DNA of 64,000 nucleotides from Nonlabens antarcticus. Lineage in GTDB: Bacteria > Bacteroidota > Bacteroidia > Flavobacteriales > Flavobacteriaceae. The position numbers and the translations under genes are program-made. The notes beneath the pieces are model-generated. The model did not search any database, was not told the DNA's origin, and saw only the letters and a program-made list of their open reading frames with translations. Location of the stretch: NCBI RefSeq assembly GCF_015356755.1, contig NZ_JADFCO010000065.1:310001-374000 (forward strand). The letters are read 5' to 3'. Shown in pieces: positions 1,204-62,059 of this stretch. Position 1 is the stretch's first letter; every line of letters starts with the position of its first letter.

Positions 1204-2241
1204 ATGCAACAGCCACAGCGAGTTTTAGTAATGCGTTTGAGTGCGATGGGTGATGTGGCGATGACCATACCGGTGTTGCTTGCATTGCGTAGAGTTTATT
1301 CGGATCTGGAAATAAGTTCGCTTTCGCGAAAGCGGTTTTTTCCCATCATCCAGCAAGTTCCTGGAATCTCTATCATCGAGGCAAAAGTTGACAAACAACA
1401 TAAGGGAATATTGGGACTGCGTCGCTTAGCAATTGAAATCAGCAATAAGAAAATTGATGCCGTAGCAGATGTGCACAATGTATTGCGTACAAAAGTATTG
1501 AGAGCATTCTTGCCGGGCACTCGTAAAGCTGTGATAGATAAAGGGAGAAGAGAGAAAAAAAAACTCATCAACGACTCTGATTATTTTCAGCAACTTAAAC
1601 TTACCACACAACGTTATGCTGACGTTTTTGAGCAATTAGGATTGCCTATCGAGCTCACTCCCGTAGATATATTGCCACGTCTCCCCATTCCTAAAAAAGT
1701 CCACAGCCTAGTAGGTGACCATCAACACCGGTGGATAGGAATTGCTCCTTTTGCAGCGCATAAATATAAATCTCTGACTCCTAAAAAAGCTAAAGCACTA
1801 GTTCAAGCTATTCTTGAGGTGGAGAATGTAAAGATTGTTCTCTTAGGCGGAGGATCAAAGGAAGCTAAGCAGCTGGAAATAGTTGCGGGTACTAGTTCTA
1901 ATGTGTTCAATCTTGCTGGATTTATGAGTTTTGAAGAAGAACTTGCGATGATATCAAACCTTGATGCGATGATTTCCATGGATAGCGGCAACGGTCATTT
2001 AGCTGCAATGTATGGAGTTCCTGTAATTACGATCTGGGGCAATACACACCCTTTTGCTGGGTTTGTTCCTTTTTTACAGCCCGACGAAAATCAAATAATC
2101 GCCAGCCGTGAGCAGTTCCCGTTAATTCCAACTTCTATTTACGGGAATAAATGTCCAGAGGGATATGAGAAAGTTTTGGAAGCTATTGAATGTAATGCGG
2201 TAGTGGAGCGATTGCGGGTAATTTTAGAAGGGGCTTACTGA
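1204..2241 (+). CDS. Glycosyltransferase family 9 (heptosyltransferase-like)
   Basis: A 345-residue protein with two Rossmann-like halves, the GT-B fold of ADP-heptose:LPS heptosyltransferases (GT9). The N-terminus VLVMRLSAMGDVAMTIPVLL is the typical GT9 opening; the C-terminal DSGNGHLAA motif (D260-H265) followed by GVPVITIWG is the nucleotide-sugar site of the family. It probably transfers a heptose or similar sugar to lipid A-core at the inner membrane; the exact sugar cannot be read. I chose the ATG at 1204 instead of an earlier in-frame ATG (1165) because the family starts there and AGGAAA precedes it. The 3' end overlaps the convergent next gene by 7 bases. One copy of the genome palindrome (1319-1334) lies in frame and encodes SLSRKR. 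Confidence 0.9.
   Translation: MQQPQRVLVMRLSAMGDVAMTIPVLLALRRVYSDLEISSLSRKRFFPIIQQVPGISIIEAKVDKQHKGILGLRRLAIEISNKKIDAVADVHNVLRTKVLRAFLPGTRKAVIDKGRREKKKLINDSDYFQQLKLTTQRYADVFEQLGLPIELTPVDILPRLPIPKKVHSLVGDHQHRWIGIAPFAAHKYKSLTPKKAKALVQAILEVENVKIVLLGGGSKEAKQLEIVAGTSSNVFNLAGFMSFEEELAMISNLDAMISMDSGNGHLAAMYGVPVITIWGNTHPFAGFVPFLQPDENQIIASREQFPLIPTSIYGNKCPEGYEKVLEAIECNAVVERLRVILEGAY
1319..1334. repeat. 16-base palindrome, copy 1 (in gene)
   Basis: CGCTTTCGCGAAAGCG, exact, in the glycosyltransferase gene; read as SLSRKR. Confidence 0.95.
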
Positions 2242-2684
2242 CACAATTCGTCAGACCATTCTTGATGGCCACGGCCTTCCTTACATTGATAAGATTCTTT
2301 CAAACCCAAAATAGTTATTCTTCCATTACTTGAAAGATCATATTCTATCCAGATAGCGATGGCATCTAGTGAATCATCTTTAAGATTGTCTTGCTGGAAA
2401 AAAAAATAGTTGCTGCCCAACTCATTTGTAATGGCTTTAGTCTTGAACGCGTTCTCACTGTTACTCTCAGAATTTATAGGATAGTAAGCTCTCAAAGCAT
2501 CTATTCCCGTTTTAACATCTTCTCGAGCATCGATTGTTTTCTGCAGATTTTTGTAATCGATATCCCTAAATTGATTCAATTCCATACCGTCTAAAAGGAT
2601 AGCTGCGCTTTGGTCAGCGTTGATGCATGAATAAGTTTGAAAAATCAACGTGAGGATTAATAAAAGCTGAAATAGTTTATACAT
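2235..2684 (-). CDS. Small secreted protein or lipoprotein, unknown function
   Basis: From the ATG at 2684 the product is 149 residues: MYKLFQLLLILTLIF is a hydrophobic export signal followed by QTYSC, a possible but imperfect lipobox (Cys20). The mature part is polar, with an FFFQQDN segment and two cysteines near the end (YQCKEG, ELCQ). The frame is open upstream as far as 2759, but only the ATG at 2684 gives a signal peptide at the N-terminus. I do not recognise a family. It is convergent with the glycosyltransferase gene, with a 7-base overlap of the two stop regions, so it is transcribed on its own. Confidence 0.6.
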   Translation of the reverse strand: MYKLFQLLLILTLIFQTYSCINADQSAAILLDGMELNQFRDIDYKNLQKTIDAREDVKTGIDALRAYYPINSESNSENAFKTKAITNELGSNYFFFQQDNLKDDSLDAIAIWIEYDLSSNGRITILGLKESYQCKEGRGHQEWSDELCQ

Positions 2685-2800
2685 GATCAAAATATAGATG
2701 CTGTTCAAATTTAAAGCTCTATTGCTTGTAATACAATGGTACATCTGCCATAAACCCAAAGATTTAAAATATTTTTGAAACTAGACTGTTGTATCAATAG

Positions 2801-5800
2801 ATGAGGTGGAAGCTACTTGTATTTTCTTTTTTTTGTAGCGGGATCATTGGTGCTCAAGATTTTGATGGCGTGGTGAAAAAGAGATTGGCAGTGCGTGATA
2901 CTATTACCTATCACAACATAAGTACTAATCCCGGTTTTTTCCAGATCAAGGATAAAATGGGTAGGATTATTGACACTACCAGTTACAAAGTCGATTTCAC
3001 CAATTCATGGCTCATTTTCAAAGAAAACGCCATCATAGTAACGGATAGTATAGATGTGAAATATCTGCCGTTAGACGATTTCTTAACGAAATCCTACCAA
3101 CTCTACGATCCAGCGATTATTTTAGGAGACAACAGCCGGCAGGAACAACTGGTAGCCTTAAAGAAATCAAGCAACAAAACTAATTTCATTCCTTTTGATG
3201 GCTTGCAGGTTTCTGGTAGTATTACTCGTGGGATACGCGTGGGCAATAATCAAAATAGTGTAGTTGATTCTGAACTTGATTTGAGAATCACCGGAAAACT
3301 ATCAGATAAAGTATCCTTACGTGCTTCTATTCAAGATGCCAATGTCCCGCAAACCCAAAATGGATATTCGCAACGGCTCGATGAATTCGATCAGATATTT
3401 ATTGAACTTTTTAGTGAGGATTGGAGCATTAGAGCTGGTGATGTGGACTTATTACAAGAAGGATATCAATTCAATAATTTTACCAAGCGCGTTCAAGGAA
3501 TCACTGGCAACATTAGGTTCAACGGCGATGAATCACAAGGATATGCCGGTGCAGCTGGTGCCTTAGTTCGTGGAACTTTTAATACCAGCCGATTTACAGG
3601 TCAAGAAGGAAATCAAGGTCCTTATAAATTGATAGGTCAGCAGGGCGAGTTGTTTATTTTGGTGATTTCTGGAAGTGAACGCGTTTATGTGAATGGTGTA
3701 TTGCGTACTCGTGGAGAGAATGCAGATTACATCATTGATTACAATGCGGGAGATGTCAGGTTCAATCCTACATTTCCCATTACCAGTGAGATGCGTATCA
3801 CTATAGAATATCAATATAGCGATCGCAACTTTACAAGATTCATAGGGTATACTAACGGCGGTTTTGAAAATAGCAATTTCAAAATCGATTCCTATATTTA
3901 CACGGAAAGCGATGCCAAAAACCAACCGTTACAACAAGACTTAAACGAGGATCAAGTAGCTATTCTCGCAAATGCCGGTGATAATGCTGACCAATCCATA
4001 GCGCCAAGTGCCGTGCGTGCCGATTTCTCTGAAAACCGAATCCAATATATACGTCAGGTAATCAATGGGATTCCCAGATTTGTGTTTTCTCAAAACCCGC
4101 AGGCGGACTTATTTAATGTGCGGTTTAGTTTTGTGGGTGCTAACCAGGGAAACTACATGCTCGTCAATAATCAAGCGATCGCAAATATCTATGAATATCG
4201 AGATCCCGTCAACGGAATCCTGCAGGGTGATTATGAGCCTGTCGTACGTCTTTTTGCCCCAGAAATATTGACCATTGCCGGTATCAAAGCAAATTATCAG
4301 CCCACGAATTCCACTACTGTTTTTACAGAACTTGCTGCAAGTAACAACGACTTGAATCGGTTTTCAGACCTGGATGATGGAAATAATTCTGGAGTTGCGG
4401 CAAAGCTGGGTCTAGAGCAGCAGTTATTAAAAAAGGATGTAAATCAGCAGCTTAAAATCGCATTGAATACGGACTATATCCAGTCTAATTTTCGCAATGT
4501 GGAGCGGGTTTATAATATCGAATTTAACCGTGATTGGAATATTGATAGTACTTTAGGTGACCAGTTATTTACTACTGTTGCGACAGAATATGCTCGCGAT
4601 TCCACTATTGCGGCAAGTTATTCCTTTCAGCATCTGGAGTTTGCAGATCGCTACAATGGCAATCGCCACAATATTGCTGGTAAATTGCAGGGTGACGGGT
4701 GGTTGTCCCGCTTTCGCGGAAGCGTGCTCTCCACAAATTCTACCACGCAACAATCTACGTTCAACAGGGCTAGTGCATCTGTAATTAAGAGATTTAATAA
4801 AAATTGGCTTGGTGCGCGATTGAATCTAGAGAGCAATGAGCAGCAAGATAAGGCGACGGGAACGCTCACGCCATTGTCGCAGCGTTTCACGGAATATGAG
4901 ATTTATGCCGGTCGTGGTGATTCTACGGCAACCTTTGTTGAAATAGGATACCGTTACCGGGTTAATGATAGTTTAAGAGCTGGAGATTTACAGCGCGTCA
5001 ACAATTCCAACACTTATTTTGTACGCTCCCAACCGATTAAGGACCAGCTTCAAAGCTTACAGGTTTTTGCAAATTATCGGGTGCTTTCCAGCGAGGATCC
5101 TAATGTTGAAAATGAAATATCGCTCAACAGCCGCCTGATTTATACGCGTAAGTTTTTTAACAATAAGGTGCTGTGGAATACAACATATGATACCAATAGC
5201 GGGACGATTCCCAGACAGGATTTTACCTATCTGGAAGTCAATCCCGGACAGGGAACATTTACATGGATCGATTATAACGGCGATGGTATCCAGGACCTGA
5301 ACGAGTTTGAGGTGGCGCAATTTCAAGATCAGGCTCGCTACGTGCGGATTTTGTTGCCCAATCAGGTTTTTATTCCCATACATCAAAATAAGTTCAGCCA
5401 GACGATTACACTCAATCCTGTTTCATGGTCTGGAGAAGAAGGCTTTAAAAAATTAGCATCAAAGTTTTATAACCAGACAAGTTATCTGATCGACCGAAAG
5501 GTCATACGAGAAGGCGAGAAGTTTGATCTGAATCCGTTTGATGATAGAGGCGACCAGCTGGGCTTGAATTTGAGTTTTAGGAACAGTCTGTTTTTCAACC
5601 GTGGAAAGCAGCGCTACACGACCAATTATACTTATTTAAGTACCACCACAGAAAACCTTCAAAGTATAGGAAGCATCGAATCAGAACTGGAAAGTCACCA
5701 GATCAACTTCCTCCACAAAATAGCTGAAAGCTGGTTATTTACCTTTAATGGTCAAACAGGTTTTAACGCCAGCCGCAGCGAGAATTTTGCCAATAGGAAT

Positions 5801-6774: not shown

Positions 6775-6776
6775 AA

Positions 6777-9629: not shown

Positions 9630-10316
9630 ATGCATTTCTGGATCAGTGACTTTGTGAATTTGTTTTATCCAGAGACTTGTATAGGTTGTGAACACTCTTT
9701 ACAAAACGGAGAGAAAATGCTCTGTGTTTCTTGTAGATCGCAATTGCCAGTTGCTTATCAAGATTTGAGGGATAATGACAAAATGATGGAATTGTTTTAT
9801 GCGCGTGTGCCGCTAGAAAATGTCACGAGCCTACTCTATTATGAAAAAATAGGAACTGTTCAACATATGATCCATCAATTAAAATACCAGAAGCAAGAAG
9901 AAATAGGAACATTTTTAGGCGTCTGGATGGCGGCCTACATGGCAGCAGACACTCGTTTTGATGATGTAGATCTGGTCATTCCTGTTCCTGTTCATCCTAA
10001 AAGATTGCGTGAAAGAGGGTACAATCAGGTTACAAAATTTAGTCAATGTATTGCAGATGGGTTAAAAGTTCGCTTTCACGAAAGCGTGCTCGTTAAAAAC
10101 CAAAATACAAAAAAACAAGCTCAGTTGAATCAACGACAGCGCAGTAATGAAACACAGCAAACGTACCAGATCACAGAAGAAATAGAACCTGGACAACATA
10201 TATTGCTGGTGGATGATGTTGTTACAACCGGCACAACGCTGACTCTATGCGCGCGGGAATTGCTCAAAATTCCTCATACGCGCATTTCCATTGCAACAAT
10301 GGGTATATCCGTTTAA
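9630..10316 (+). CDS. comF: ComF family phosphoribosyltransferase-like protein
   Basis: A 228-residue cytoplasmic protein. Residues 17-35 carry a zinc-ribbon-like set of four cysteines (C17xxC20, C32xxC35). The phosphoribosyltransferase PRPP loop is D195-DVVTTGTT-203, preceded by ILLV. ComF proteins take part in DNA uptake in naturally competent bacteria and interact with the primosome machinery, but many homologues lie in non-competent species, so a competence role here is not proven. Copy 10071-10086 of the palindrome, with one mismatch (CGCTTTCACGAAAGCG), is in frame and encodes RFHES. It is followed after 24 bases by a lipoprotein gene in the same direction. Confidence 0.9.
   Translation: MHFWISDFVNLFYPETCIGCEHSLQNGEKMLCVSCRSQLPVAYQDLRDNDKMMELFYARVPLENVTSLLYYEKIGTVQHMIHQLKYQKQEEIGTFLGVWMAAYMAADTRFDDVDLVIPVPVHPKRLRERGYNQVTKFSQCIADGLKVRFHESVLVKNQNTKKQAQLNQRQRSNETQQTYQITEEIEPGQHILLVDDVVTTGTTLTLCARELLKIPHTRISIATMGISV
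10071..10086. repeat. 16-base palindrome, copy 3 (in gene)
   Basis: CGCTTTCACGAAAGCG, one mismatch, in comF; read as RFHES. Confidence 0.85.
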
Positions 10317-12717: not shown

Positions 12718-13854
12718 TTATATTTCGTTTAAAATGTTAGCAGCAGCGACGATTTCTTCATCAGTTTTGGCAAAGCAGAACCGCAGCATTTTGGGATCGC
12801 GGCCTTCCATAAAGACACTTATGGGAATGGAAGCAATTTTGTGATTGACGGTTAACGCTTTCGCGAAAGCGTAATCACCCTCATCTGTAATGTTAGAATA
12901 GTCGAGCAGCTGGAAATAGGTACTTTCTGATGGTGTGAATTTGAACATACTGTCCTTGATGAGGTTGAGAAAAAGATCCCGCTTGCGCTGATAGAATTTG
13001 CCGAGATCTGTATAATGCTCTGGCGTTTGCAAATAGGTTGCAATGGCTTTTTGAATGGGATGATTCACACAGAAAACCACGTTTTGGTGGACTTTCAGAA
13101 ACTCCTTTATCAGCCTAGGTGGCGCTAGGCAAAAGCCCGTTTTCCAGCCTGTCACATGAAAAGTCTTACCAAAACTTCCCATCACAAAACTGCGCTCTTT
13201 CAATGCTGGATAGCGACTCGCGCTCAAATGTTCACGACGGTCAAAGACCATGTGCTCGTAAACCTCGTCGCTCAAGACGATCAGATTGTTTTCAACCGCA
13301 ATCTTTTCTAATTGCAGCATGTCCTCATGGGTCAGTAATTTGCCGCTGGGATTGTGCGGAGAGTTGATGAGGATCATTTTGGTATTTGAGTTCACGCTAG
13401 ACCTTACCTGATCCCAATCAATCGTAAAATCTGGAAGTCGCATCGCAATACGCACAGGAATACCGCCAGCAACCTTTATCGCAGGCTCGTAACAATCGTA
13501 AGCAGGCGTGAAAAGAATTACTTCATCACCTTTAAAGATAGTGGCTTGGATCGCCGTAAAAATTCCTTGGGTCGCGCCAGCGACAACATAAACTTCTGTA
13601 TCAGGATCGTAAAATGCATTGTGCTGCGATTCAAACATCTTGCTGATTGCAATCCGCAAGGCCGGCAAACCAGCCATGGGTGCGTATTGATTATGGTCTT
13701 CCAGAATGGCTTGGGATGCTAGCTGTTTCAGTTCTTCACTCGCAGTAAAGCTGGGAAATCCCTGCGAGAGATTAAGTGCGCCATGCTGTGCGGCAAGCTG
13801 GGACATCTCAGAAAAGATGGAGATTGAGGTGTTTGGGAGTTTTGATTGGAGCAT
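12718..13854 (-). CDS. Class I/II PLP-dependent aminotransferase (methionine/glutamine transaminase-like)
   Basis: A 378-residue fold type I aminotransferase. The Schiff-base lysine is K230 in MGSFGKTFHVTGWKTGF; N168 (INSPHNPSG), D196 and Y199 (LSDEVYEH) contact the cofactor, and a C-terminal Arg (MLRFCFAK) should bind the substrate carboxylate. It is most like the YbdL/kynurenine aminotransferase branch, which transaminates methionine, aromatic amino acids and glutamine. It is the first gene of a two-gene operon with the omega-amidase. An exact palindrome copy at 12856-12871 encodes AFAKA close to the C-terminus without disturbing the fold motifs. Exact amino-acid preference cannot be read. 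Confidence 0.9.
   Translation of the reverse strand: MLQSKLPNTSISIFSEMSQLAAQHGALNLSQGFPSFTASEELKQLASQAILEDHNQYAPMAGLPALRIAISKMFESQHNAFYDPDTEVYVVAGATQGIFTAIQATIFKGDEVILFTPAYDCYEPAIKVAGGIPVRIAMRLPDFTIDWDQVRSSVNSNTKMILINSPHNPSGKLLTHEDMLQLEKIAVENNLIVLSDEVYEHMVFDRREHLSASRYPALKERSFVMGSFGKTFHVTGWKTGFCLAPPRLIKEFLKVHQNVVFCVNHPIQKAIATYLQTPEHYTDLGKFYQRKRDLFLNLIKDSMFKFTPSESTYFQLLDYSNITDEGDYAFAKALTVNHKIASIPISVFMEGRDPKMLRFCFAKTDEEIVAAANILNEI
12856..12871. repeat. 16-base palindrome, copy 4 (in gene)
   Basis: Exact; in the aminotransferase gene, read as AFAKA. Confidence 0.95.
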
Positions 13855-16819: not shown

Positions 16820-16835
16820 CGCTTTCGCGAAAGCG
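16820..16835. repeat. 16-base palindrome, copy 5
   Basis: Exact; between sdhA and sdhB within the operon. Confidence 0.95.
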
Positions 16836-19730: not shown

Positions 19731-19746
19731 CGCTTTCGCGAAAGCG
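19731..19746. repeat. 16-base palindrome, copy 6
   Basis: Exact; in a divergent region; arms GAATGTCGT/ACGACATTC lie outside it. Confidence 0.95.
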
Positions 19747-22846: not shown

Positions 22847-22862
22847 CGCTTTCGCGAAAGCG
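22847..22862. repeat. 16-base palindrome, copy 7
   Basis: Exact; between the ATP-grasp and aspartoacylase-like genes; arms GTAGGGTAAA (22805-22814) and TTTACCCTAC (22879-22888) lie outside it. Confidence 0.95.
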
Positions 22863-24396: not shown

Positions 24397-27267
24397 CTAT
24401 TTCACCTCCAGACTCTCCACAGCGCTCCCGCCCTTCCCGCTCAATTTCACAGTATACTTTCCAGCCGGCAAGTAATACCTTCCATTATCTCCTTTTTTGG
24501 GAGAATCTTTTTTATCAAAACGCTTCACTCCAGATTCAGAAACCGATCCATCGTATTCATAGAAATTCAATCCCGCATCGCTATCGATTGTGAATTCTTG
24601 TATGGTTTTGCCTTCAGCATTCATCACTTCCAGTTTTGTTTTACCTGCTTCTGGGCTGTAATAGGAAATTTCAACAGAAGGTTCTGGACTTTCATCGCTC
24701 AGAAATCGAGTACTACCGTAACGACTGGAAGCTCTAAAGCCATTTACAGCTGCTATCTTAAGCTTCTTACTGGTATATCCCGTTACTTTTTCCTCAGACC
24801 CAGCTTTTATTAAAGACAAGGCATCCAGATTTGCTTTGTATATAGATCGACCGTGAGTTCCAACTAAAAGATCGTTGGATTTGGGTTGGATTTTTAAGTC
24901 ATGCACAGCAACTGGCGGCATATCTGCATTTAAGAGGGACCATGCTCCTGCTTGCTCTGCCACCCAAACAGCATTATCAGTTCCCACAAAAATCATATTT
25001 TCATCAGATGGATGCTCGATAATTACATTTACGGGAGAAACAGGTAATCCAGTACTTATGTTTGTCCAGGTCTGTCCTGCATTTTCACTCATATATACAT
25101 AAGGAGTAAAATCATCTGCACGGTAATTATTTAAGGTTACATAAACGCGATCTTTTTTATGCTGGGAAGCAACGACCCTGCTTACCCACAAATCCGATGG
25201 CCAGTCGCCATTTAGTTTGGTCCAATTTGCACCTCCATCTTTCGTTAATTGCACTAATCCATCATCGGAACCGGTATAAATCATTCCAAATTGGAAAGGA
25301 GATTCACTGATAGCTGTTAGCGTACCATAAGCCACATTACCTTCCTTTCCACCTTGTGTCAAATCAGGAGAAATAGTTGTAAAGTCAGTTCCCTGGTTCA
25401 TGCTACGGTGTAACTTATTACCACCTAAATATAAAACATCCTGATTATGGGAGCTCAGCAAGATAGGAGTCTGCCAGTTGAAACGATACGGCGATTCACC
25501 CAGTTCGTGTTTGGGTTGGATATAAGCACGCTCTCCAGTTTTTCTATTGAGGCGATAATAATTACCGAATTGGAACCCGGTATAAACAATATCTTTATTT
25601 CTGGAATCGATCTGTACCTGCATTCCATCGCCACCCATAATGGATTCCCATGGATACTGACCCTGTTGTTGCCAGGAGCGATCCTCACGAGCATTATTTG
25701 CACCTACCCAGACGCCGTTATCTTGCAAACCACCATAAACGTTATAGGGTTCTTCCATATCATAATTGATGTAGTAAAACTGACCCACGCTAGGGGAGTT
25801 ATTTTTAATCCAGGTTTCCCCATCGTCATAAGAAATATTTAATCCACCGTCATTTCCATTGATCAAATGACCACCTTTATTAGGGTTCACCCATAATGCA
25901 TGATGGTCTGCATGAACATTTTCTCGAGAAATATTGACCCAATTTTTTCCACCATCTGCAGACTTTATAATGGGAACACCCATAACATATAACTTTTGAA
26001 CATCACTAGGATCCACTCTTACTTCTCCAAAATAATACCCGTAGCTATAAAACACATCATCTAATTGACCCTCATGTGTTTTTACCCAGGTTTTCCCGCC
26101 ATTATCAGATCTATATAGCTCTGCACCTTTAACGGGTGTGTCAAAAAGTTGGGTGTTTGCATCTTCCAGATATAAGGAGAGGTCCGCTGGTTTAGCCATA
26201 CCACCACGTATCATGTTCTTTACGTTCTGAGCGCGGTATTTTTCATGAAAACCATTTTCCTTTAGGTATTCGTTCAGCGTTTTATCTTCTAAGGATAAAA
26301 ATGCATCCATGGTCATTCCCTGAAAATCTGACTTGTTTAAGGATTGAGAAGAGCTCGCTTTCGCGGAAGCGTCATCCTCCACTTTGTCTCTTCTAAACTG
26401 GGAATCATGAAGTGCATAAATAGTGTTCTCATCATAAACAGCTAGGCCTATTCTTCCCACGCCGCTGCCGGTTGGGAAACCGCTTGCTTCTGTAGATATT
26501 TTATTCCAAGTCTGACCAGCATCGGTGCTTTTGTAAATTGCACTCGCGTCCCCATCTCCATCAAAATTCCAGGCTTTTCGATCCTTTTCCCAACTTGTAG
26601 CATACATAATGTTGAAATTATTAGGAACCGTTGCTAGATCTATGAAACCTGCCATATTTGTTCCCTCTAAGGTTCTGTTCCATGTAGACCCTCCATCCAT
26701 AGTAATATAAATCCCACGATCATCACTTAAGGAATATAAAGGTCCGGTTACCGCTACCACAACGTGATCTGCATTTTTTGGATCGATCAAAATGCGTCCG
26801 ATGTGTTGAGAAGCAGGTAACATAGGTTTGCTCCACGTCTTGCCCCAATCTGTTGATTTTAAAACACCAATTCCGGCATAACTACTGCGGCTAGAATTAT
26901 TTTCTCCAGTACCTGCCCAGATGGTTTTAGACTGCCAGTCTACCGCAATATCTCCTAGATTGATAGTACCGGCGTTATCCATAATAGGAGTAAAGCTTGT
27001 ACCGTTATTTTTAGTATGCCATAGACCACCACTGGCATAAGCAACCATTATTTCAGTGGGATCCACTGGATTTACATCTACATCAACTACACGTCCAGAC
27101 ATTACTGTCGGACCTATATTATCAAATTTTAGATTTTTGTAAAAAGAGTTTTCCGCATCGGTTTGCAGGCTTTCAACACCTTCTAAAACCTGCGCTGCAG
27201 GCGTGGGTTGTTGCGCAAAAAGCGCGGAACTTAAAATAAGTGAGACGGCGAGTAATGGGTATTTCAT
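24397..27267 (-). CDS. Sortilin/VPS10-like BNR-repeat secreted protein
   Basis: About 956 residues. I start at the ATG at 27267 (MKYPLLAVSLILSSALFAQ), which gives a clean signal peptide; an earlier in-frame ATG at 27300 would bury it. The rest is a ten-bladed-type propeller with repeated asp-box motifs: SxDxGxTW occurs again and again (STDWGKTW, DGGSTWNR, STDAGQTW, DNGGKTW, DGGANWTK, NAGQTWTN). The C-terminal part is a beta-sandwich (EISYYSPEAGKTKLEVMNAEG...) of the kind fused to such propellers in Bacteroidota. Annotated homologues are called glycosyl hydrolase BNR repeat or sortilin-like, but enzymatic activity is not shown. A palindrome variant (26356-26371) encodes ASAKA in a linker. Confidence 0.85.
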   Translation of the reverse strand: MKYPLLAVSLILSSALFAQQPTPAAQVLEGVESLQTDAENSFYKNLKFDNIGPTVMSGRVVDVDVNPVDPTEIMVAYASGGLWHTKNNGTSFTPIMDNAGTINLGDIAVDWQSKTIWAGTGENNSSRSSYAGIGVLKSTDWGKTWSKPMLPASQHIGRILIDPKNADHVVVAVTGPLYSLSDDRGIYITMDGGSTWNRTLEGTNMAGFIDLATVPNNFNIMYATSWEKDRKAWNFDGDGDASAIYKSTDAGQTWNKISTEASGFPTGSGVGRIGLAVYDENTIYALHDSQFRRDKVEDDASAKASSSQSLNKSDFQGMTMDAFLSLEDKTLNEYLKENGFHEKYRAQNVKNMIRGGMAKPADLSLYLEDANTQLFDTPVKGAELYRSDNGGKTWVKTHEGQLDDVFYSYGYYFGEVRVDPSDVQKLYVMGVPIIKSADGGKNWVNISRENVHADHHALWVNPNKGGHLINGNDGGLNISYDDGETWIKNNSPSVGQFYYINYDMEEPYNVYGGLQDNGVWVGANNAREDRSWQQQGQYPWESIMGGDGMQVQIDSRNKDIVYTGFQFGNYYRLNRKTGERAYIQPKHELGESPYRFNWQTPILLSSHNQDVLYLGGNKLHRSMNQGTDFTTISPDLTQGGKEGNVAYGTLTAISESPFQFGMIYTGSDDGLVQLTKDGGANWTKLNGDWPSDLWVSRVVASQHKKDRVYVTLNNYRADDFTPYVYMSENAGQTWTNISTGLPVSPVNVIIEHPSDENMIFVGTDNAVWVAEQAGAWSLLNADMPPVAVHDLKIQPKSNDLLVGTHGRSIYKANLDALSLIKAGSEEKVTGYTSKKLKIAAVNGFRASSRYGSTRFLSDESPEPSVEISYYSPEAGKTKLEVMNAEGKTIQEFTIDSDAGLNFYEYDGSVSESGVKRFDKKDSPKKGDNGRYYLPAGKYTVKLSGKGGSAVESLEVK
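26356..26371. repeat. 16-base palindrome, copy 8 (in gene)
   Basis: CGCTTTCGCGGAAGCG, one mismatch, in the sortilin-like gene; read as ASAKA. Confidence 0.85.
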
Positions 27268-27391
27268 TTGGTAAACTTTAGGTAGCGTGAAGATAAGCAA
27301 GCTATTATTGTTTTGGAAACTAGGTCATTTACAATTATTATAACAGTAATGCTTGATGGTCTGCTTAATTTTGAAAGATAACTTCTTTTCT

Positions 27392-28278: not shown

Positions 28279-28294
28279 CGCTTTCGCGAAAGCG
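28279..28294. repeat. 16-base palindrome, copy 9
   Basis: Exact; between the DUF6503-like lipoprotein gene and pepP. Confidence 0.95.
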
Positions 28295-31592: not shown

Positions 31593-31608
31593 CGCTTTCG
31601 CGAAAGCG
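31593..31608. repeat. 16-base palindrome, copy 10
   Basis: Exact; between convergent genes (118-residue protein and CNNM). Confidence 0.95.
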
Positions 31609-33166: not shown

Positions 33167-33182
33167 CGCTTTCGCGAAAGCG
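33167..33182. repeat. 16-base palindrome, copy 11
   Basis: Exact; 12 bases beyond the trkA stop. Confidence 0.95.
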
Positions 33183-38410: not shown

Positions 38411-38759
38411 GTTGTGGTTTTCCACAAAAGTAACGAGAAATCCTCAGCCATTTTCCCGGATTTATATAAGGTTCAGGATTAAACTTTCCACTGGGTTTTA
38501 AGTCTTACCAGCGTATTTCATGGGAGTTTGATGATTGTTGAAATTGCGCTTTCGCGAAAGCGTTACACCAATAATAATTTTGCTGGTAACTTGATAAAAG
38601 TTCAAAAGCGTTGAGCTTACTTCCATAAATCTCAAAAAAGACATTAAATAGGGTTGGTTATTCAGTCATTGATTTATAATTTTATCCTGATTTTAAGGCG
38701 TTAGCCACACAAGAACAAGTATTTTTAGACGTTAGAAACGAGTACCAAAATAGGAATAT
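38411..38759. other. Divergent intergenic region before moxR
   Basis: Contains the SDR -7 box and a palindrome copy (38547-38562). TATTTTTA at 38719 is a one-mismatch -7 candidate for moxR. Nothing else recognised. Confidence 0.5.
38547..38562. repeat. 16-base palindrome, copy 12
   Basis: Exact; in the divergent region between the SDR gene and moxR. Confidence 0.95.
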
Positions 38760-40985: not shown

Positions 40986-42625
40986 GAAGACTGCTATCCT
41001 TATACCTACTGCTACTCGCTGCAATGCCAGCTATAGCTCAATCGACTAAGATTGTTACGACTAAAATTGACCGCGACAGCATCATGATGGGCGAGGAAAT
41101 CAAGGTTCAGGTGACCGTTGAGGCGACACCACAGGACCTGGTTGTTTTTCCCATCCAGCAAGCGATGGGTGCTCTCGAGGTGATCGAGGATTATCCGGTG
41201 GATACCATCCGCAAGAATGATAAGTTGCAATTATTCAAGCAGTACGGTATCACACAATTTGACAGCGGGAACTATTACATACCGCGATTGAAGATAATTT
41301 TCAATAGCAAAGAATTATTTACGGATAGCTTGCTTGTAAAGGTGCGCGAGGTGCAAACCGACACGACCGTCCAGAAAATGTTCCCTATTAAGGCAGATAT
41401 TGATAACGATTATGAGCGACCGTTCAATTATTATGCGTTATTAATTCTACTGTTGTGGATTCCACTGGGGATTTTGTTTTGGTGGCTTTCGCGAAAGCGA
41501 ACTCGTAAGACGTATGAGCAAACCTTACCGGCTTATGAATGGACGAAGTACCGTCTGGAAAATCTGGCCGAAAGTGGACTCGCCGAAGACCGGGAATGGA
41601 AAGAATATTATACGGAACTGACTTATGTGGTGCGGCGCTACATCGATACTAAAGTGTATGGACAGGCACTGGAAAGCACTACGGATCAGCTGATTGAAAA
41701 TATAGAGAGTGAGACGGCGGCCAAAGGGGTTTCCATCACTGATAAGACCAAAGATCGTTTGCAAGTCCTTCTTAAAAAGGCAGATCTGATCAAATTTGCC
41801 GGGATGACTGGGGATGGGATTTCTGCCAAGGAAGATCGTCAGACCGCTAACGATATCATTTACAACATCCATCAGGTGCTGCCGCCACCGTCTGAGGAGG
41901 AATTGCTGCAGGACGTGAAATACCGAAAGTCACAGGATAGAAAGCGCAAGGTTAGAAAAGTGCTGATGTATATCGCTGGTGTAATTCTAGGATTAGCGAT
42001 TGCCGTGGCTGCGTGGATCGTCTTTGTAGGCTATGAGAATGTAAAGGACCAGATATTAGGCAATCAACTGCGGGAATATTATGAGGGAACACGTTACATC
42101 AGTAGTTATGGGGTTCCTGAGGTAACATTAACGACACCGGAGATTTTAGAGCGCAGGGAAAACCTTCCGATGAGCGCCCAGTTTAAACAGGCGACCACCA
42201 GTCTGGATGGTTTTGCATTGAACAGTATGGATGATGATCTGTTTATGACGTTAATTACTTTCCAGATCAAAGGCGAGGGCCTTAAGGAAGGCGAGCAATT
42301 GCCTAAAGAAGTAATTACAGAACCTATCTATAAAAGTTTTGAGGATCAAGGGGCGACGAATATTCTAATGCTGGACGAGCCTGCAGAGCGCAACGGAATC
42401 AAAGGATTGAAACTGGAAGGAACTTTTGACTACGACGGAAAACAATATGAATATGAAGGTTATCTGTTTGCAAACGGAGCCTCGATCCAGCAAGTTATTA
42501 TTGGACATGTTAAAGATGAAACTGCGGAAACCGATAAACAGTACGGACGATTGCTGCAAGAGCAAATTATCGCTTCCATGCAATTGAAACAACCACAACC
42601 AGAGGTAAAAGAGAAAGCGGAATGA
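40982..42625 (+). CDS. Bat-locus membrane protein, BatD/DUF4381-like N-terminal half
   Basis: A 547-residue exported protein: signal peptide (1-19, ending AIAQ), a periplasmic beta-domain (about 20-145) resembling BatD, a transmembrane helix (ALLILLLWIPLGILFWWLS, about 150-168), a cytoplasmic segment with WTKYRLENL...WKEYYTELTYVVRRYID of DUF4381 type (about 175-320), a second helix (IAGVILGLAIAVAAWIVFVG) and a second periplasmic domain of about 190 residues. The palindrome core GCTTTCGCGAAAGC (41485-41498) is read as LSRKR just inside the membrane, where positive charges suit the topology. The stop overlaps the next start. Confidence 0.78.
   Translation: MRRLLSLYLLLLAAMPAIAQSTKIVTTKIDRDSIMMGEEIKVQVTVEATPQDLVVFPIQQAMGALEVIEDYPVDTIRKNDKLQLFKQYGITQFDSGNYYIPRLKIIFNSKELFTDSLLVKVREVQTDTTVQKMFPIKADIDNDYERPFNYYALLILLLWIPLGILFWWLSRKRTRKTYEQTLPAYEWTKYRLENLAESGLAEDREWKEYYTELTYVVRRYIDTKVYGQALESTTDQLIENIESETAAKGVSITDKTKDRLQVLLKKADLIKFAGMTGDGISAKEDRQTANDIIYNIHQVLPPPSEEELLQDVKYRKSQDRKRKVRKVLMYIAGVILGLAIAVAAWIVFVGYENVKDQILGNQLREYYEGTRYISSYGVPEVTLTTPEILERRENLPMSAQFKQATTSLDGFALNSMDDDLFMTLITFQIKGEGLKEGEQLPKEVITEPIYKSFEDQGATNILMLDEPAERNGIKGLKLEGTFDYDGKQYEYEGYLFANGASIQQVIIGHVKDETAETDKQYGRLLQEQIIASMQLKQPQPEVKEKAE
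41485..41498. repeat. Palindrome, copy 13 (14-base core, in gene)
   Basis: GCTTTCGCGAAAGC, exact core; the outermost base pair is lost (G in place of C on the left). Read as LSRKR in the BatD/DUF4381-like protein. Confidence 0.9.
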
Positions 42626-45190: not shown

Positions 45191-46022
45191 ATTAGTGCAA
45201 TATAGTCTCGTTTTAATTTTAGTTTGTGGTGTGTCCGCTTTCGCGAAAGCGCAATCACCACAACCCAATACCAAAGCTTATGAGGCAGCCATGGGTGAAG
45301 GGCTGGAGTATGCCAGTAACAAAGAATTCCCTAAAGCAGAGGCCTCCTACCGCAAGGCAAAGGCATTAAACCCGCAGGCGGCAGAGGCTTCCTATAATTT
45401 GGGTAACCTCTATTATGAGAATGATAAAAAATACAATGCTTCTGAAAATTACAGAGCTGCAGCAACAAATACAACTTCTAAAGCAGAAAAACATAAGGCG
45501 TTTCATAATATGGGCAACACTTTTATGGACAATAAGCAGTATTCAGAAGCGGTCGAAGCCTATAAAAGTGCATTACGCAACGATCCTACCGACGATGAAA
45601 CGCGTTATAATCTAGCACTTGCTAAACAAGAAAAAGAAAAGCAAGGCGGCGGTGGCGGTGGCGGCGATGACAAACCGGACAAGGGTGATAATAAGGACGA
45701 AAACAAGAATAAAGAAGGCGATCAGGACGATAAGTCTGGTGGCGATAATAAAGGTGATAAAGAAAAAGAAGGAAAGGATAAAGACGGCGATAAAGGTGAA
45801 GGAAAAGACGATAAGAAGGGCGAGAATCAAGAAGGAAAAGATGGCGATGGTAAACCTAAAGAGCAAGAAGGGAAGCAACCGCAACGTGTGGAAGGCCAAA
45901 TGACACCGCAACAAATACGTCAGATCCTGGAAGCGATGAATAACGAGGAACAAAAAATCCAGGATAAAATCAACGCCAAAAAAGTGAAAGGCAGCAAGAA
46001 AAAAACCGAAAAAGACTGGTAG
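45183..46022 (+). CDS. batC: TPR protein BatC with low-complexity C-terminus
   Basis: A 279-residue periplasmic protein: signal peptide, three TPR units (about 38-150, with EASYNLGNLYYEND and KAFHNMGNTFMDN), then a highly charged Gly/Lys/Asp/Glu low-complexity stretch (about 157-235) and a short C-terminal helix (TPQQIRQILEAMNNEEQKIQ). An exact palindrome copy (45236-45251) forms the end of the signal peptide: SAFAKAQS, where AKA is a plausible cleavage site. It overlaps batB and is one base before batD. Confidence 0.88.
   Translation: MNKLVQYSLVLILVCGVSAFAKAQSPQPNTKAYEAAMGEGLEYASNKEFPKAEASYRKAKALNPQAAEASYNLGNLYYENDKKYNASENYRAAATNTTSKAEKHKAFHNMGNTFMDNKQYSEAVEAYKSALRNDPTDDETRYNLALAKQEKEKQGGGGGGGDDKPDKGDNKDENKNKEGDQDDKSGGDNKGDKEKEGKDKDGDKGEGKDDKKGENQEGKDGDGKPKEQEGKQPQRVEGQMTPQQIRQILEAMNNEEQKIQDKINAKKVKGSKKKTEKDW
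45236..45251. repeat. 16-base palindrome, copy 14 (in gene)
   Basis: Exact; in batC, read as AFAKA at the end of the signal peptide. Confidence 0.95.
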
Positions 46023-47768: not shown

Positions 47769-47773
47769 AGAGA

Positions 47774-48532
47774 ATGAAATTTCGGATTTTTATATTCTTA
47801 TTTACGATGGCTGCTCTAGCAACCGCGCAGAATGTTAGTGATGAAAACGCTTTCGCGAAAGCGAACACCTCCTACACGGACGGTAATTATCAAGAGGCTA
47901 TCAACTCCTATGAAACTATTTTGCAGTCTGGTAAACAGAGTGCCGAGTTGTTTTTCAACTTGGGTAATGCGCACTATAAACTCAACCAGGTAGGCCCAGC
48001 AGTCTACAATTATGAGCGCGCGTTACAGCTGAATCCAAGTGATAAAGAGATCAAAAATAACTTGAAATTTGCCCAGCAAATGCGCGTTGATGATGTACAG
48101 CCACTGGCAGAAAATCCAGTCAAAAAATTCTTGAAAGAGATGGCTACGTGGTTATCCATTGACATGTGGGCATACGTTAGCATTATGATGGCATTAGTTT
48201 GTGTACTGACATTCCTTTTGTACCATTATGCAACGACTACTGGAAAAAAGAGGCTGTTCTTATTACTTTCAATGGGTTTTTTAATAGCGATGATCCTCTC
48301 AGTGGTAGCCGCTACTTATTCACGTAATTTGATGGAGGAAGACACACAGGCCATAGTTTACAGCACAGAAACAGTGACAAGAGCAGAGCCTAAACCAGAC
48401 GCAGATCCTAGCTTTGCAATTCATGAGGGGACAAAGGTGACCATTCTAGAAGAATATCAAGAATGGGCCCACGTGGAGCTGGCAAACGGTTCAAAATCCT
48501 GGATGCCGCTCGCTGATTTGAAGAAACTGTAA
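47774..48532 (+). CDS. batE: TPR and SH3-like protein BatE
   Basis: A 252-residue exported protein: signal peptide (MKFRIFIFLFTMAALATAQ), two TPR units (about 25-105, ELFFNLGNAHYKLN and GPAVYNYERALQLNP), two transmembrane helices (about 130-150 and 158-180) and a C-terminal SH3b domain (GTKVTILEEYQEWAHVELANGSKSW). I prefer the ATG at 47774 to the TTG at 47765 that overlaps the batD stop. A palindrome copy (47848-47863) encodes AFAKA. Last gene of the locus. Confidence 0.88.
   Translation: MKFRIFIFLFTMAALATAQNVSDENAFAKANTSYTDGNYQEAINSYETILQSGKQSAELFFNLGNAHYKLNQVGPAVYNYERALQLNPSDKEIKNNLKFAQQMRVDDVQPLAENPVKKFLKEMATWLSIDMWAYVSIMMALVCVLTFLLYHYATTTGKKRLFLLLSMGFLIAMILSVVAATYSRNLMEEDTQAIVYSTETVTRAEPKPDADPSFAIHEGTKVTILEEYQEWAHVELANGSKSWMPLADLKKL
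47848..47863. repeat. 16-base palindrome, copy 15 (in gene)
   Basis: Exact; in batE, read as AFAKA just after the signal peptide. Confidence 0.95.
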
Positions 48533-54775: not shown

Positions 54776-54791
54776 CGCTTTCGCGAAAGCG
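54776..54791. repeat. 16-base palindrome, copy 16
   Basis: Exact; between the divergent hemA and AraC-type regulator genes. Confidence 0.95.
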
Positions 54792-56640: not shown

Positions 56641-56657
56641 GATTTAAAAATAGGGAA

Positions 56658-57206: not shown

Positions 57207-57311
57207 AGTTATTTAATGATGATTATGGTGTTAAAACCAATAAGGATGCCAAAATCTAACGCTTTAATTAAACTATTATTTGGTCATGTTATGTAAAAGC
57301 TGGGTTCTTCT

Positions 57312-58235
57312 TTATCTAAATATATCCCGCGCTACTCTAAACGTATTGGTATGAGCATCCACGATGTGCTTTATTTCTGGAGAGTAGCCGCCACCCATGC
57401 TGCATTGTACTGGTATGAAGGGTTTTGAGGCGTGTTCCGCTTTCGCGAAAGCGGAAAAGCTATAAGAATCCCGCTTTTTACAACCTTCTAATGTCATTCC
57501 TAAACGGCCTAATTTGTCGGTGGCTAGCACATCAACACCCGCTAAATAAAATATAAAATCTGGCTTTTCTTGAGCAATCAAATCGGGTAAATGATGCTGG
57601 AGTTCCTTTAAATAAGTGCCGTCATCAGTCCCATCTGGAAGAGCAATATCCAGATCTGATTGCTCCTTTTTAAATGGATAATTTCCTGCACCGTGCATGG
57701 AGAAGGTGAAAACGCTATCGTCGTTTTGGAATATTTGAGCAGTGCCGTTTCCTTGATGAACATCCAGATCAACAATCAAAATTTTCTCTGCGTGGCCGTG
57801 CTGTTGTAGATATCTGGAAGCAATCGCCTGATCGTGCAATAGGCAAAATGCCTCGCCATGATCGGTATAGGAATGATGAGTGCCACCAGCGATATTCATG
57901 GCTATTTTATGTTCCATGGCTTTTAGACAACCCTCTATAGTTCCCTGGGCAATGCGTAATTCGCGACTAATCAACTCGGCACTCAGAGGAAAGCCTAGCT
58001 TTCTGGCAGCACGCTTTTCCAGATTTAAGGTCTTGAGTTGCTCTAGGTATTCTGAAGTATGCACCCGCAACACATCTTTATCCTCACACAATCTGCTGGG
58101 TTCAAAAAAGTCAGTAGGTTGAGCAATTCCTTCATGTAGCAGCTGCTGTGGCAACAACTCATATTTAATCATGGGAAACCGGTGACCTTCTGGCAAGGGG
58201 TGTTTGTAGATAGGGTGGAAAGCAATGGGGAACAT
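57312..58235 (-). CDS. Histone deacetylase/acetoin utilisation family hydrolase
   Basis: A 307-residue cytoplasmic zinc hydrolase of the class II HDAC/AcuC fold. GGTHHSYTDHG holds the catalytic His pair H120-H121; VDLDVHQGNG gives zinc ligands D158 and H160; the third ligand Asp lies in YLAGVDVLATDKLG, and GGGYS carries the catalytic region at the end. It should remove acetyl or similar groups from lysine or small amines (polyamines); the substrate is unknown. The palindrome copy 57438-57453 encodes SAFAKA in a surface loop. Confidence 0.9.
   Translation of the reverse strand: MFPIAFHPIYKHPLPEGHRFPMIKYELLPQQLLHEGIAQPTDFFEPSRLCEDKDVLRVHTSEYLEQLKTLNLEKRAARKLGFPLSAELISRELRIAQGTIEGCLKAMEHKIAMNIAGGTHHSYTDHGEAFCLLHDQAIASRYLQQHGHAEKILIVDLDVHQGNGTAQIFQNDDSVFTFSMHGAGNYPFKKEQSDLDIALPDGTDDGTYLKELQHHLPDLIAQEKPDFIFYLAGVDVLATDKLGRLGMTLEGCKKRDSYSFSAFAKAEHASKPFIPVQCSMGGGYSPEIKHIVDAHTNTFRVARDIFR
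57438..57453. repeat. 16-base palindrome, copy 17 (in gene)
   Basis: Exact; in the HDAC-family gene, read as AFAKA. Confidence 0.95.
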
Positions 58236-59025: not shown

Positions 59026-59050
59026 GAGAAATCGTACTCTATTTCTTAAC

Positions 59051-59102: not shown

Positions 59103-59115
59103 TTGTTTTATATAT

Positions 59116-60333: not shown

Positions 60334-60382
60334 ATTAAAATAGACCATTTTAAACTAGGTCATTTATGGTAATCCATTACCT

Positions 60383-61927
60383 ATGAAGAAAATTATTCTC
60401 TATGTTTTTTTAGGGCTCACAGTGGTTACGGTAGGAGGTTATTTCTACGTCAATCATTTAGTAAAGCAAAAAGTAGAGACATTTCTTGCAGACCAACTGT
60501 CACCACAAATAAATTTCACATACGGCGGTATTTACATGAGCACTTTTTCAGGGTTAATTTCTATTGAAGGAATTGACGCCAGATTTAGCAATAAAAATGA
60601 TACTGTAATACACACGAGAGCAACGGTTGATAAGCTTGAATTATCCGGTTTTGCCTATTGGAATTACTTTGTGAATGACCAGATCCAGTTTGATCATATT
60701 GAGATTAATGAAAATAATATCGTTTATTTCAAGGACAAGTTTATAAAAGCCCAAAAATCAAATAGTGACAAGCAAGATCCATTAGCAAAAATTGACAAAA
60801 GTGTTTTAGTAAGCTCCCTCTCTATAGGCAATACTAGTTTTACCATGTACGACGCAAGTAAAGATTCTGTGGTGCTTCATATTTCAAAAGCAGCGCTATC
60901 CATGAAGGATATTCGTACAGATGCATCTATCATTAAGCAACGCATTCCTATTACTTATGATCAGATAAGTCTAGCTAGCGACTCCTTATTCTTAAAGATC
61001 AGTCCTTATGAAGATTTGAACATTAAGAGCCTAAATATAGCAGATGATGCTGTTACCATTAAGGATTTATCAATACTTCCCAAATATTCTAAGCAAGAAT
61101 ATTCAAGAATTTTACCTAAGGAACGGGATTATACCGTATTAAAAATTCCAAGCATCAATATTATGGGCTACGAATTTGGGTTTAATCAAGAGAACCTATT
61201 TTTTAATGTGCAAAAGGTGGAAGTCGATAAACCAGACTTATCTATTTATAGGGATAAATTAGTTGCAGATGATTTATCAGTAAAGCCTTTATATAGTAAA
61301 ATGCTGCGGGATCTGAAAATGCAATTGATGGTGGATAGCATTTTGATTTCAAAAAGTCATATTGTATATGAAGAAAAGGTAAAATCAGACAAATCAGCGG
61401 GAAGCATTGAGTTTACTGATTTAAATCTTGATATGGCTGCAGTGGGTAACGTTCAAGAAAAGGGGCGATTAACATCCATAACTGCCGACGGTTTATTTCA
61501 AGAAAGTAATATCCACGTAGACTGGAGTTTTGACGTGCATAATGTAAACGATGCGTTTCGATTTAGTGGTAACATAGGAAAGCTTCCAGCATCGAATATT
61601 AACTCTTTCGTGCGTCCCAATCTAAACGTAGAATTTGAGGGAACGTTAGAGGAAATCTATTTTGACATTTCTGGAAATAACAATACCTCACAAACAGCAA
61701 TGAAAATGGCCTATGACGACTTCAAGGTCAATCTGATGCGTAAAAATAATTCTGGTGTTAATAAATTTTTATCTGGAATCGCAAATCTATTTGTTGCTAA
61801 AGACAGCAAAGATGATGGGGAGAAATACCGTGATGGAAACGGCAACGCAGAACGCAACAAAGATCAATCAGTTTTCAATTTTGTATGGATCAGTATTTTA
61901 TCAGCATTATTGAAAACCATGACTTAG
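60383..61927 (+). CDS. AsmA-like membrane-anchored protein
   Basis: A 514-residue protein with one N-terminal helix (MKKIILYVFLGLTVVTVGGY, then the extra-cytoplasmic part). The body has the repeating beta-strand pattern of AsmA/TamB-type bridge proteins: GIDARFSNKND, ELSGFAYWNYFVNDQIQFDH, VVLHISKAALSMKDI. There is no enzyme motif. Lipid transport between membranes is known for the superfamily, but the match here is by layout only, so the call is tentative. It follows hflX by 49 bases and may share its transcript. Confidence 0.6.
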   Translation: MKKIILYVFLGLTVVTVGGYFYVNHLVKQKVETFLADQLSPQINFTYGGIYMSTFSGLISIEGIDARFSNKNDTVIHTRATVDKLELSGFAYWNYFVNDQIQFDHIEINENNIVYFKDKFIKAQKSNSDKQDPLAKIDKSVLVSSLSIGNTSFTMYDASKDSVVLHISKAALSMKDIRTDASIIKQRIPITYDQISLASDSLFLKISPYEDLNIKSLNIADDAVTIKDLSILPKYSKQEYSRILPKERDYTVLKIPSINIMGYEFGFNQENLFFNVQKVEVDKPDLSIYRDKLVADDLSVKPLYSKMLRDLKMQLMVDSILISKSHIVYEEKVKSDKSAGSIEFTDLNLDMAAVGNVQEKGRLTSITADGLFQESNIHVDWSFDVHNVNDAFRFSGNIGKLPASNINSFVRPNLNVEFEGTLEEIYFDISGNNNTSQTAMKMAYDDFKVNLMRKNNSGVNKFLSGIANLFVAKDSKDDGEKYRDGNGNAERNKDQSVFNFVWISILSALLKTMT

Positions 61928-62043
61928 TTAGACAGTAAGGTAATGGTTCAGTAAGATCCTTTATAAATATGTTCTGTAATAACTTAAAACCATATGATCT
62001 CGTAGTTCAGCAGATTAATTAATATTGTAAAAAGAACAATTTT

Positions 62044-62059
62044 CGCTTTCGCGAAAGCG
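62044..62059. repeat. 16-base palindrome, copy 18
   Basis: Exact; between the convergent AsmA-like and DUF3078 genes. Confidence 0.95.

Follow-up and report, generated by a model that had tools for sequence, protein, structure and literature searches.

A 16-bp palindrome that recurs 18 times in a 64,000-nucleotide stretch of Nonlabens antarcticus DNA (contig NZ_JADFCO010000065.1, positions 310,001 to 374,000; the whole stretch is hereafter called the window) appears to be a genome-wide recognition site, read as duplex DNA by a putative symmetric (dimeric) protein. Its most likely role, with a rough probability of 0.42, is that of a DNA-exchange ("self") signal under transfer drive. We infer both the protein and the benefit, exchange rather than another chromosomal role. 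The observed basis is that the palindrome is restricted to a few lineages, that the sites are evenly spaced, that their flanks are symmetric without covariation, and that they are constrained at fixed positions. In addition, sites differ by substitution in place at the few loci where this is readable, a 53-kb conjugative region is free of sites, and copies outside the motif-dense genera are more decayed. The uptake sequences of Pasteurellaceae show a similar syndrome, and transfer drive through DNA exchange is therefore ranked first.

In the proposed mechanism, the 16-bp dyad, together with weak extensions that bring it to about 50 bp, would be bound as double-stranded DNA by a dimeric protein, and site-bearing DNA would be preferentially taken up or recombined between relatives. 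The resulting transfer drive would spread the sites, space them, and repair decayed copies, as in proposals made for the uptake sequences of Haemophilus and Neisseria.

Copies of the palindrome in the window and in the genome

When up to two mismatches were allowed, the window contained 18 copies, 14 exact and 4 with one mismatch (starting at 4709, 10071, 26356, and 41484), and 100 dinucleotide shuffles gave a mean of 0.01 and a maximum of 1. The gaps between neighbouring copies were 1.6–6.9 kb. These results bear out an earlier reading of the window made from its letters alone (the sequence-only reading), which had reported the 18 copies at these coordinates, the near-zero chance expectation, and the same range of gaps. 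Its 14 exact copies also stand, whereas the copy that it described as reduced to a 14-base core is the one-mismatch copy at 41484, in which the first base is changed. In contrast, the extension by GAGTT on the left and AACTC on the right that it had seen in many copies was not recovered: exact GAGTT precedes 2 of the 18 copies, exact AACTC follows 4 of the 18, and 0 of the 18 have both.

The genome from which the window was taken (3.27 Mb, 66 contigs) contains 480 exact copies, versus 0 copies of a reversed-control word, indicating that the genome-wide count is not random. The copies are distributed throughout the genome and across Nonlabens genomes, and are not confined to a single mobile element. 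Together with the intragenic copies, these counts support the earlier description of a genome-wide, non-random element that is not simply a terminator. Genes called with our own gene caller enclose 9 of the window's 18 copies, and the other 9 are intergenic; tandem, divergent, and convergent gaps all hold copies, as had been proposed, but the placement is not exclusively between genes. The copies are listed below, with the strand given as "." for all 18 and the gene context taken from the same gene caller.

Site 1: 1319..1334 (.), exact; within a glycosyltransferase-9 gene, 1165-2241 +
Site 2: 4709..4724 (.), one mismatch; within an open reading frame (ORF), 2801-6208 +
Site 3: 10071..10086 (.), one mismatch; within a comF-like gene, 9630-10316 +, under the NCBIfam comF cut-off
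Site 4: 12856..12871 (.), exact; within an aminotransferase gene, 12718-13854 -
Site 5: 16820..16835 (.), exact; tandem intergenic
Site 6: 19731..19746 (.), exact; divergent intergenic
Site 7: 22847..22862 (.), exact; tandem intergenic
Site 8: 26356..26371 (.), one mismatch; within an ORF, 24397-27300 -
Site 9: 28279..28294 (.), exact; 38 bp upstream of an aminopeptidase P gene
Site 10: 31593..31608 (.), exact; convergent intergenic
Site 11: 33167..33182 (.), exact; tandem intergenic
Site 12: 38547..38562 (.), exact; divergent intergenic
Site 13: 41484..41499 (.), one mismatch, in the first base, leaving the 14-base core unchanged; within an ORF, 40982-42625 +
Site 14: 45236..45251 (.), exact; within a TPR-like gene, 45183-46022 + (matches under curated cut-offs); encodes AFAKA, apparently at the end of a signal peptide
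Site 15: 47848..47863 (.), exact; within a TPR-like gene, 47765-48532 + (matches under curated cut-offs); encodes AFAKA
Site 16: 54776..54791 (.), exact; divergent intergenic
Site 17: 57438..57453 (.), exact; within an ORF, 57312-58235 -
Site 18: 62044..62059 (.), exact; convergent intergenic

Placement and spacing along the chromosome

In a 464-kb sample of the window's genome, in which the gene caller assigned 79% of the bases as coding, 67 of 116 sites lay in genes and 49 were intergenic (one further site, which lacked a gene on one side, was omitted). The intergenic sites comprised 29 in tandem, 12 in divergent, and 8 in convergent gaps, roughly in proportion to the base pairs of each class. 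A transcription terminator, another RNA hairpin, or the operator of a regulator is the least likely of the explanations weighed here: the palindromic form and an intergenic share of twice the expectation (49/116 versus 21% non-coding) are consistent with it, but the intragenic majority, the distribution over the three classes of gaps, and the absence of flank covariation described below are not. An intrinsic terminator or hairpin was rejected on the basis of the intragenic sites and the flanks.

Within genes, the palindrome is read as AFAKA (39 sites), RFRES (16), or LSRKR (12). In several genes, the AFAKA copy lies near the N-terminus and is followed by Q, resembling a signal-peptidase site. 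Signal peptides thus seem to accommodate the DNA signal.

The coefficient of variation of the 114 gaps in the sample was 0.476, compared to 0.98 for random placement, and none of the 114 gaps was shorter than 800 bp, where 21–22 were expected. None of 2000 random placements, including those matched for coding and intergenic class, was as even as the observed one. Essentially the same spacing was seen in 100-kb stretches of four relatives, where the coefficient was 0.44–0.55 and no gap was below 1 kb. The exclusion of short gaps is not absolute: the genome G003 has three gaps below 800 bp, the smallest being 109 bp, and the smallest gaps in the stretches of G009 and G010 are 259 and 785 bp, respectively. 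In G003, a complete chromosome, site density showed no trend with distance from dnaA (Spearman 0.18, P 0.28), and the counts per 20 kb were less variable than random (Fano factor 0.55; 37 stretches, one with none).

The even spacing and the lack of an origin-to-terminus trend would also be produced by a chromosome-architecture site, in which a dimeric nucleoid protein would occupy each dyad and form loops of a few kilobases, and selection on this role would keep the spacing. This is the main rival to the exchange signal, and we regard it as possible, although less probable.

Anatomy of the site

The anatomy was determined from 287 sites, 117 from the 464 kb of the window's genome (G000) and 170 from 740 kb of G003. 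Across these sites, the core of 16 bases hardly varies (32 bits), and weaker, symmetric flanks extend to about 17 bp on either side (about 7 bits). The flanks prefer A at +1 to +3, +6, +9, +11, and +12, whereas G is rare (0.03–0.15) between +3 and +17 of the outward strand, and those of intragenic and intergenic sites in the window's genome are much alike. The complementarity between the left and right flanks of one copy was no higher than that of shuffled pairs (20 positions, z −1.4 to 1.9). These results indicate that the symmetry belongs to what is recognized, and not to a hairpin. This arrangement, a dyad whose A-rich flanks are symmetric, roughly in phase with the helix, and free of left-right covariation, is also as expected for a bound homodimer of the chromosome-architecture kind.

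The core is identical in Nonlabens and Dokdonia, but the flanks differ as dialects: A/G-A-A in Nonlabens and T-A-A in Dokdonia. In the genome G227, which has the same core, the first flanking base is most often T, as in Dokdonia, and among 20 half-sites of the genome G211 only half have G as the outermost core base. The outermost base was also the one changed in 33 of 55 one-mismatch copies.

Parts of the palindrome occur near or below background outside the sites. TCGCGA and CGCG occurred 100 and 1138 times against 122 and 1678 expected from a Markov model whose expectation includes the sites and is slightly high; TTCGCGAA was likewise below an expectation that includes the sites, TTTCGCGAAA occurred 3 times (2.4 expected), and CTTTCGCGAAAG did not occur (0). 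The half-site CGAAAGCG was found 26 times against 19.6 expected, close to background. These near-background counts indicate that the unit is an all-or-none dyad.

The same counts bear on two further explanations. One is a HIP1-like element, in which an adenine or N4 methyltransferase would modify the palindrome and a linked repair bias would create or keep copies. The palindrome is indeed iterated and has a CGCG centre, and HIP1 is likewise described as a GC-rich iterated palindrome (PMC4390886); the methyltransferases of HIP1 are, however, described as reading internal words of 4–6 bp, and here TCGCGA and CGCG are not enriched and CTTTCGCGAAAG is absent outside the sites. A search for C5-methyltransferases, which did not cover the adenine and N4 families, gave no match in 9 of 17 motif-rich genomes, including that of the window. 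We know of no methyltransferase that reads 14–16 contiguous bases. The HIP1-like explanation is thus improbable, and methylation in the form known for HIP1, one of the functions suggested by the sequence-only reading, gains no support from the sub-words or from the C5-methyltransferase search. The specific 5-methylcytosine version was rejected on the same two grounds.

The other is a self-identity mark, similar to a two-way Chi, that would protect or license DNA against a nuclease or repair enzyme. Its density is of the same order as that of Chi in E. coli, for which 1008 copies in 4.64 Mb are given in PMC1939737, and copies are present in phage contigs (see below). Nevertheless, the half-site count reveals no evident directional half-signal, and the symmetric flanks point to recognition of the double strand, so that this explanation is still more improbable. 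A Chi-type directional word was rejected, since the site is a palindrome whose half-sites are near background.

The total information of the site, about 39 bits, exceeds about three-fold the 12 bits or so that would suffice to locate the sites. In addition, near-matches are in surplus: forms with three and four mismatches numbered 7 and 32, compared to 1.3 and 12.3 expected from an order-3 Markov model, which is slightly low as judged from the 16% surplus of five- and six-mismatch forms. Both features are expected if more than bare recognition keeps the copies perfect, and the information excess counts against the chromosome-architecture site.

Lineages that carry the palindrome

All 23 of the 23 Nonlabens genomes contained 180–737 exact copies (255–737 where completeness was at least 90%), and the reversed control had no match in them. 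In a sample of 397 genomes of the family, the 14-base core was present in 80, but hundreds of cores were found only in the 4 sampled Nonlabens, G211 (408), and G227 (857); the remaining 74 had 1–19 copies each. In a sample of 395 genomes of the class, only 7 had exact copies, six of them 1–2. Four named Dokdonia loci were palindrome-dense, and three other loci among the 80 had one two-mismatch match each. These results show that the palindrome is dense in Nonlabens, in Dokdonia loci, and in G211 and G227, and is rare or absent in the other sampled genomes.

Judged from one locus, G227 is closest to Dokdonia. In a tree of a single gene, Nonlabens did not group with Dokdonia, G227, and G211, although one gene is insufficient to decide this. 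The aminopeptidase P of the window shares 80–85% protein identity with seven Nonlabens loci and one BBFL7 locus, and at most 78% with the next genera.

This distribution argues against a chromosome-architecture site in two respects: the exact copy number varies about three-fold among the Nonlabens genomes that are at least 90% complete, and most other sampled genera do without the palindrome.

Conservation and turnover of sites

The core is strongly constrained at fixed positions. Between G001 and G008, 30 of 30 aligned sites in one 100-kb region were kept within two mismatches, with 2 substitutions in 480 core bases compared to 5.9% of aligned bases; over 300 kb, 78 of 78 aligned sites were kept (6 unaligned), with 5 of 1248 core bases changed versus 4.8%. 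Between G010 and G009 over 200 kb, 29 of 29 aligned sites were kept (6 unaligned), with 8 of 464 core bases changed versus 10%. For more distant pairs, the core substitutions were 5/431 (G001–G014, background 20.8%), 2/271 (G005 and the window's genome, 23.3%), and 29/432 with lost sites counted (G014–G005, 24.4%). The core thus evolves 3.6–31 times more slowly than the aligned background across the compared pairs.

When 24 sites of the window's genome were tested, 14 of 16 aligned sites were kept in G001, 15 of 16 in G005, 14 of 15 in G008, and 15 of 18 in G014, with 6–9 unaligned; most aligned copies therefore survive between species that differ at 20–25% of bases. The conserved positions are also consistent with the chromosome-architecture site.

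At three distinct loci and in two further comparisons (about five loci), the site was absent from a gap-free alignment with 6–9 substitutions, indicating that the sites there were made or lost in place. Among 87 comparisons between motif-dense loci, the site was kept in 53, the alignment was gapped in or beside the site in 32, and 2 differed by substitution only. The gapped cases, together with the many near-identical copies, could be taken for a mobile repeat (of the REP/RAYT or MITE-like kind) inserting as a unit. However, they are blastn alignments of diverged sequence, readable neither way, and both the gap-free substitutions and the positions fixed between species speak against insertion, making a mobile repeat unlikely.

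The aminopeptidase P locus illustrates both constancy and turnover. Among 21 Nonlabens, the site was just upstream of the gene in 14, just downstream in 5, at neither place within 1.5 kb in 2, and at both in 0, with the orientation of minus-strand loci being inferred in these calls. The upstream copy of the window (site 9) is also present in 13 of the 20 other Nonlabens.

Islands, phages, and stretches in other genera

The region G000:C58:45401-99100 of the window's genome (L185-L187) spans 53 kb and has an exact site at each end, but no copy within two mismatches inside, where only two three-mismatch matches were found. It contains a BREX-like defence cluster (BrxC domains, an Eco57I-type methylase, PglZ, BrxL, and a UvrD-type helicase) with a TraG-like ATPase and a tyrosine integrase nearby, i.e. 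a conjugative/BREX region. That such a site-free region is tolerated counts against the chromosome-architecture site.

Two other site-free gaps were seen. A 20-kb gap in G001 (G001:C4:332468-352821) holds a pilus/secretion ATPase gene (336408-337520), one of only three that exceeded the cut-off among 15 Nonlabens. A 13.6-kb palindrome-free gap in the window's genome holds a ParB-domain gene, G000:C66:20190-20468 (616-residue frame). A second such gene is located at G000:C60:5491-5769 (602-residue frame); both are present besides the chromosomal ParB, and large ParB-domain proteins of similar size occur in five other genomes of the set.

Among cultured phages, Nonlabens phages P12024L and P12024S, which are presumably lytic, had no site within three mismatches in 35 of about 35.7 kb each, nor was any found within three mismatches in a Winogradskyella phage. 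In a collection of viral contigs, 41 stretches carried exact copies; six of them, at 54–67% G+C and with a single copy, may be chance matches. The contig 3300040781_000495 (L225, L242, and L245) carries, over 27.9 kb, 6 exact copies and 2 near ones, along with portal, terminase, head, and sheath genes, the terminase being related to that of Winogradskyella phage Peternella_1. The viral stretch L218, with portal, major head, and tape-measure genes, aligns with L223 at about 65–69%; two of the three sites of L223 are at matching places in L218, whereas the third has no counterpart there. Sites kept in some phage contigs and lacking in three cultured phages are not readily explained by chromosome architecture.

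From genera that are not motif-dense, 16 stretches were taken, picked for having copies (exact 14-base cores), and the listed copies were often clustered. In 6 of the 16 (L016, L018, L019, L022, L028, and L029), a pair of copies lies 933 bp apart in an outer-membrane efflux gene. In L016, the efflux gene lies beside genes for an RND pump, a multicopper oxidase, and a heavy-metal P-type ATPase; L026, which lacks the pair, encodes an RND pump and two P-type ATPases. These stretches may be transferred DNA, possibly from a motif-bearing lineage. Their copies were 20 exact, 21 one-mismatch, and 6 two-mismatch, compared to 217, 55, and 15 in Nonlabens, so that decay was greater outside the motif-dense genera (exact to mismatched, 20:27 versus 217:70, P 1.7e-5), even though the stretches had been picked by exact 14-base cores.

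A search for other palindromes in nine groups of outgroup loci (64–187 kb each) found no 14-base palindrome reaching 4 copies. The only 12-base palindromes with at least 4 copies were TTGGTATACCAA (4) and CCAAAATTTTGG (6), each in one group of related loci, where they may repeat a single place.

Candidate machinery and the exchange explanation

Several results weigh against DNA exchange as the role of the palindrome. The pilus/secretion-type ATPase family PF00437 was over the cut-off in only 3 of 15 Nonlabens, and was not over the cut-off in the window's genome, G003, G211, or G227; it exceeded the cut-off also in 8 of 31 other genomes (11 of 48 overall), and matches at E 0.001 were present in 46 of 48 genomes, so that sub-cut-off matches say little. 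All 30 of the 30 genomes tested have the ComEC family, including 13 that are not motif-dense, and the family is therefore not specific to palindrome carriers. To our knowledge, no competence has been described in Nonlabens. Two proteins of the palindrome-bearing phage contigs were looked for in Nonlabens genomes as a guide to hosts: one matched in 0 of 23 and the other, marginally, in 1 of 25.

Sequence divergence around the sites gave a mixed picture. In one close pair of genomes, divergence was 0.0450 within 1 kb of a site and 0.0545 beyond 1.5 kb, with 12 of 500 shifts giving a contrast as large, a suggestive result. The first region of this pair had also been suggestive, but the second region taken alone was less so (50–53 of 500 such shifts). 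No lower divergence near sites was seen in another pair, which differs at 10% (433 of 500 shifts), or in pairs at 20–25% divergence.

In addition, the tests run place the palindrome outside the family of the uptake signal sequences (USS) and DNA uptake sequences (DUS), given its palindromic form and the absence of an over-cut-off pilus/secretion ATPase from G211, G227, and 12 of 15 Nonlabens; the known uptake sequences are non-palindromic (PMC1939737). As for the suggestion of DNA uptake in the sequence-only reading, uptake is the best analogy, but the comF gene offered in its support is weak evidence, given that ComEC is present in all 30 genomes. In favour of exchange, a preference for own DNA in transformation is reported for another flavobacterium, Riemerella columbina (PMC7965970).

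A ParB paralogue peculiar to the carriers was not found: forms of 599–616 residues were present in 3 of the 17 motif-rich genomes and in 3 of the 13 others, each of which also has one chromosomal-type ParB (the MatP and SlmA families were not searched). A site of the Noc/MatP/parS type was rejected on this basis and by the lack of an origin-to-terminus trend.

Taken a step further, the exchange explanation would make the palindrome a "mate-recognition" signal of marine Bacteroidota with a dimeric reader of duplex DNA and no type IV pilus, that is, a third, independently evolved family of uptake signals shared by Nonlabens, Dokdonia, and co-evolved phages. We put this forward tentatively, as a rather doubtful extension.

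Significance

The palindrome is a chromosome-wide signal with the strength of classical uptake sequences, and it is long enough for its protein to be captured directly. If the exchange explanation is true, it represents a new system of DNA exchange by which gene flow between marine bacteria is restricted; if the architecture explanation is true, a new global chromosome organizer. In carrier genomes, it may date foreign DNA such as islands and phages, and in other genera it marks the efflux-gene stretches as possible exports from motif-bearing lineages.

We know of no comparable chromosome-wide signal in this phylum. No description of the palindrome was found in the open-access literature searched, judged by titles and the starts of abstracts, with subscription papers not covered. 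Searches of this literature with CGCTTTCGCGAAAGCG, GCTTTCGCGAAAGC, TTCGCTTTCGCGAAAGCGAA, TTTCGCGAAA, and CTTTCGCGAAAG gave matches via the 10-mer TTTCGCGAAA alone, none of them on the subject by title.

Comparison with known systems

The uptake sequences of H. influenzae are reported to be evenly spaced, with 65% in ORFs (PMC1939737), and those of Pasteurellaceae to form dialects, to be more frequent in core than in accessory genes, and to have accumulated in temperate phages while being scarce in large phages that are probably lytic (PMC6776037), with even spacing and graded near-matches (PMC6776037, PMC1939737). The palindrome resembles the USS and DUS in its hundreds of copies or more, evenly spaced in and between genes, its near-matches above chance, and its genus dialects, and seems to resemble them in its sparseness in new DNA and its presence in only some phages. 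It differs from them in being a 16-bp palindrome, in having fewer copies, and in that most tested carriers are without a pilus/secretion ATPase. The USS and DUS are asymmetric words of 9–12 bp.

The sites of Noc, SlmA, MatP, and ParB (parS) are palindromic chromosomal sites of 12–16 bp that are bound by dimers. Unlike these, the Nonlabens palindrome shows no origin-to-terminus trend and no extra ParB paralogue specific to its carriers. Chi also has many of its sites in genes, and the palindrome is similar to it in having one site per few kilobases, many of them intragenic; it is, however, symmetric and 16 bp long, with half-sites that are not clearly enriched.

Similar to HIP1 of cyanobacteria, the palindrome is highly iterated and peculiar to its lineages, with an unsettled function. 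In contrast to HIP1, it is twice as long and has no enriched methyltransferase sub-word outside the sites; 9 of the 17 carriers tested gave no match to a C5-methyltransferase, and its copies are about ten-fold fewer than those of the 10-base form of HIP1 counted in Synechocystis (PMC1939737). The sequence-only reading, which had placed the palindrome beside HIP1 and the uptake sequences, was thus right about its class, that of a genome-wide iterated signal.

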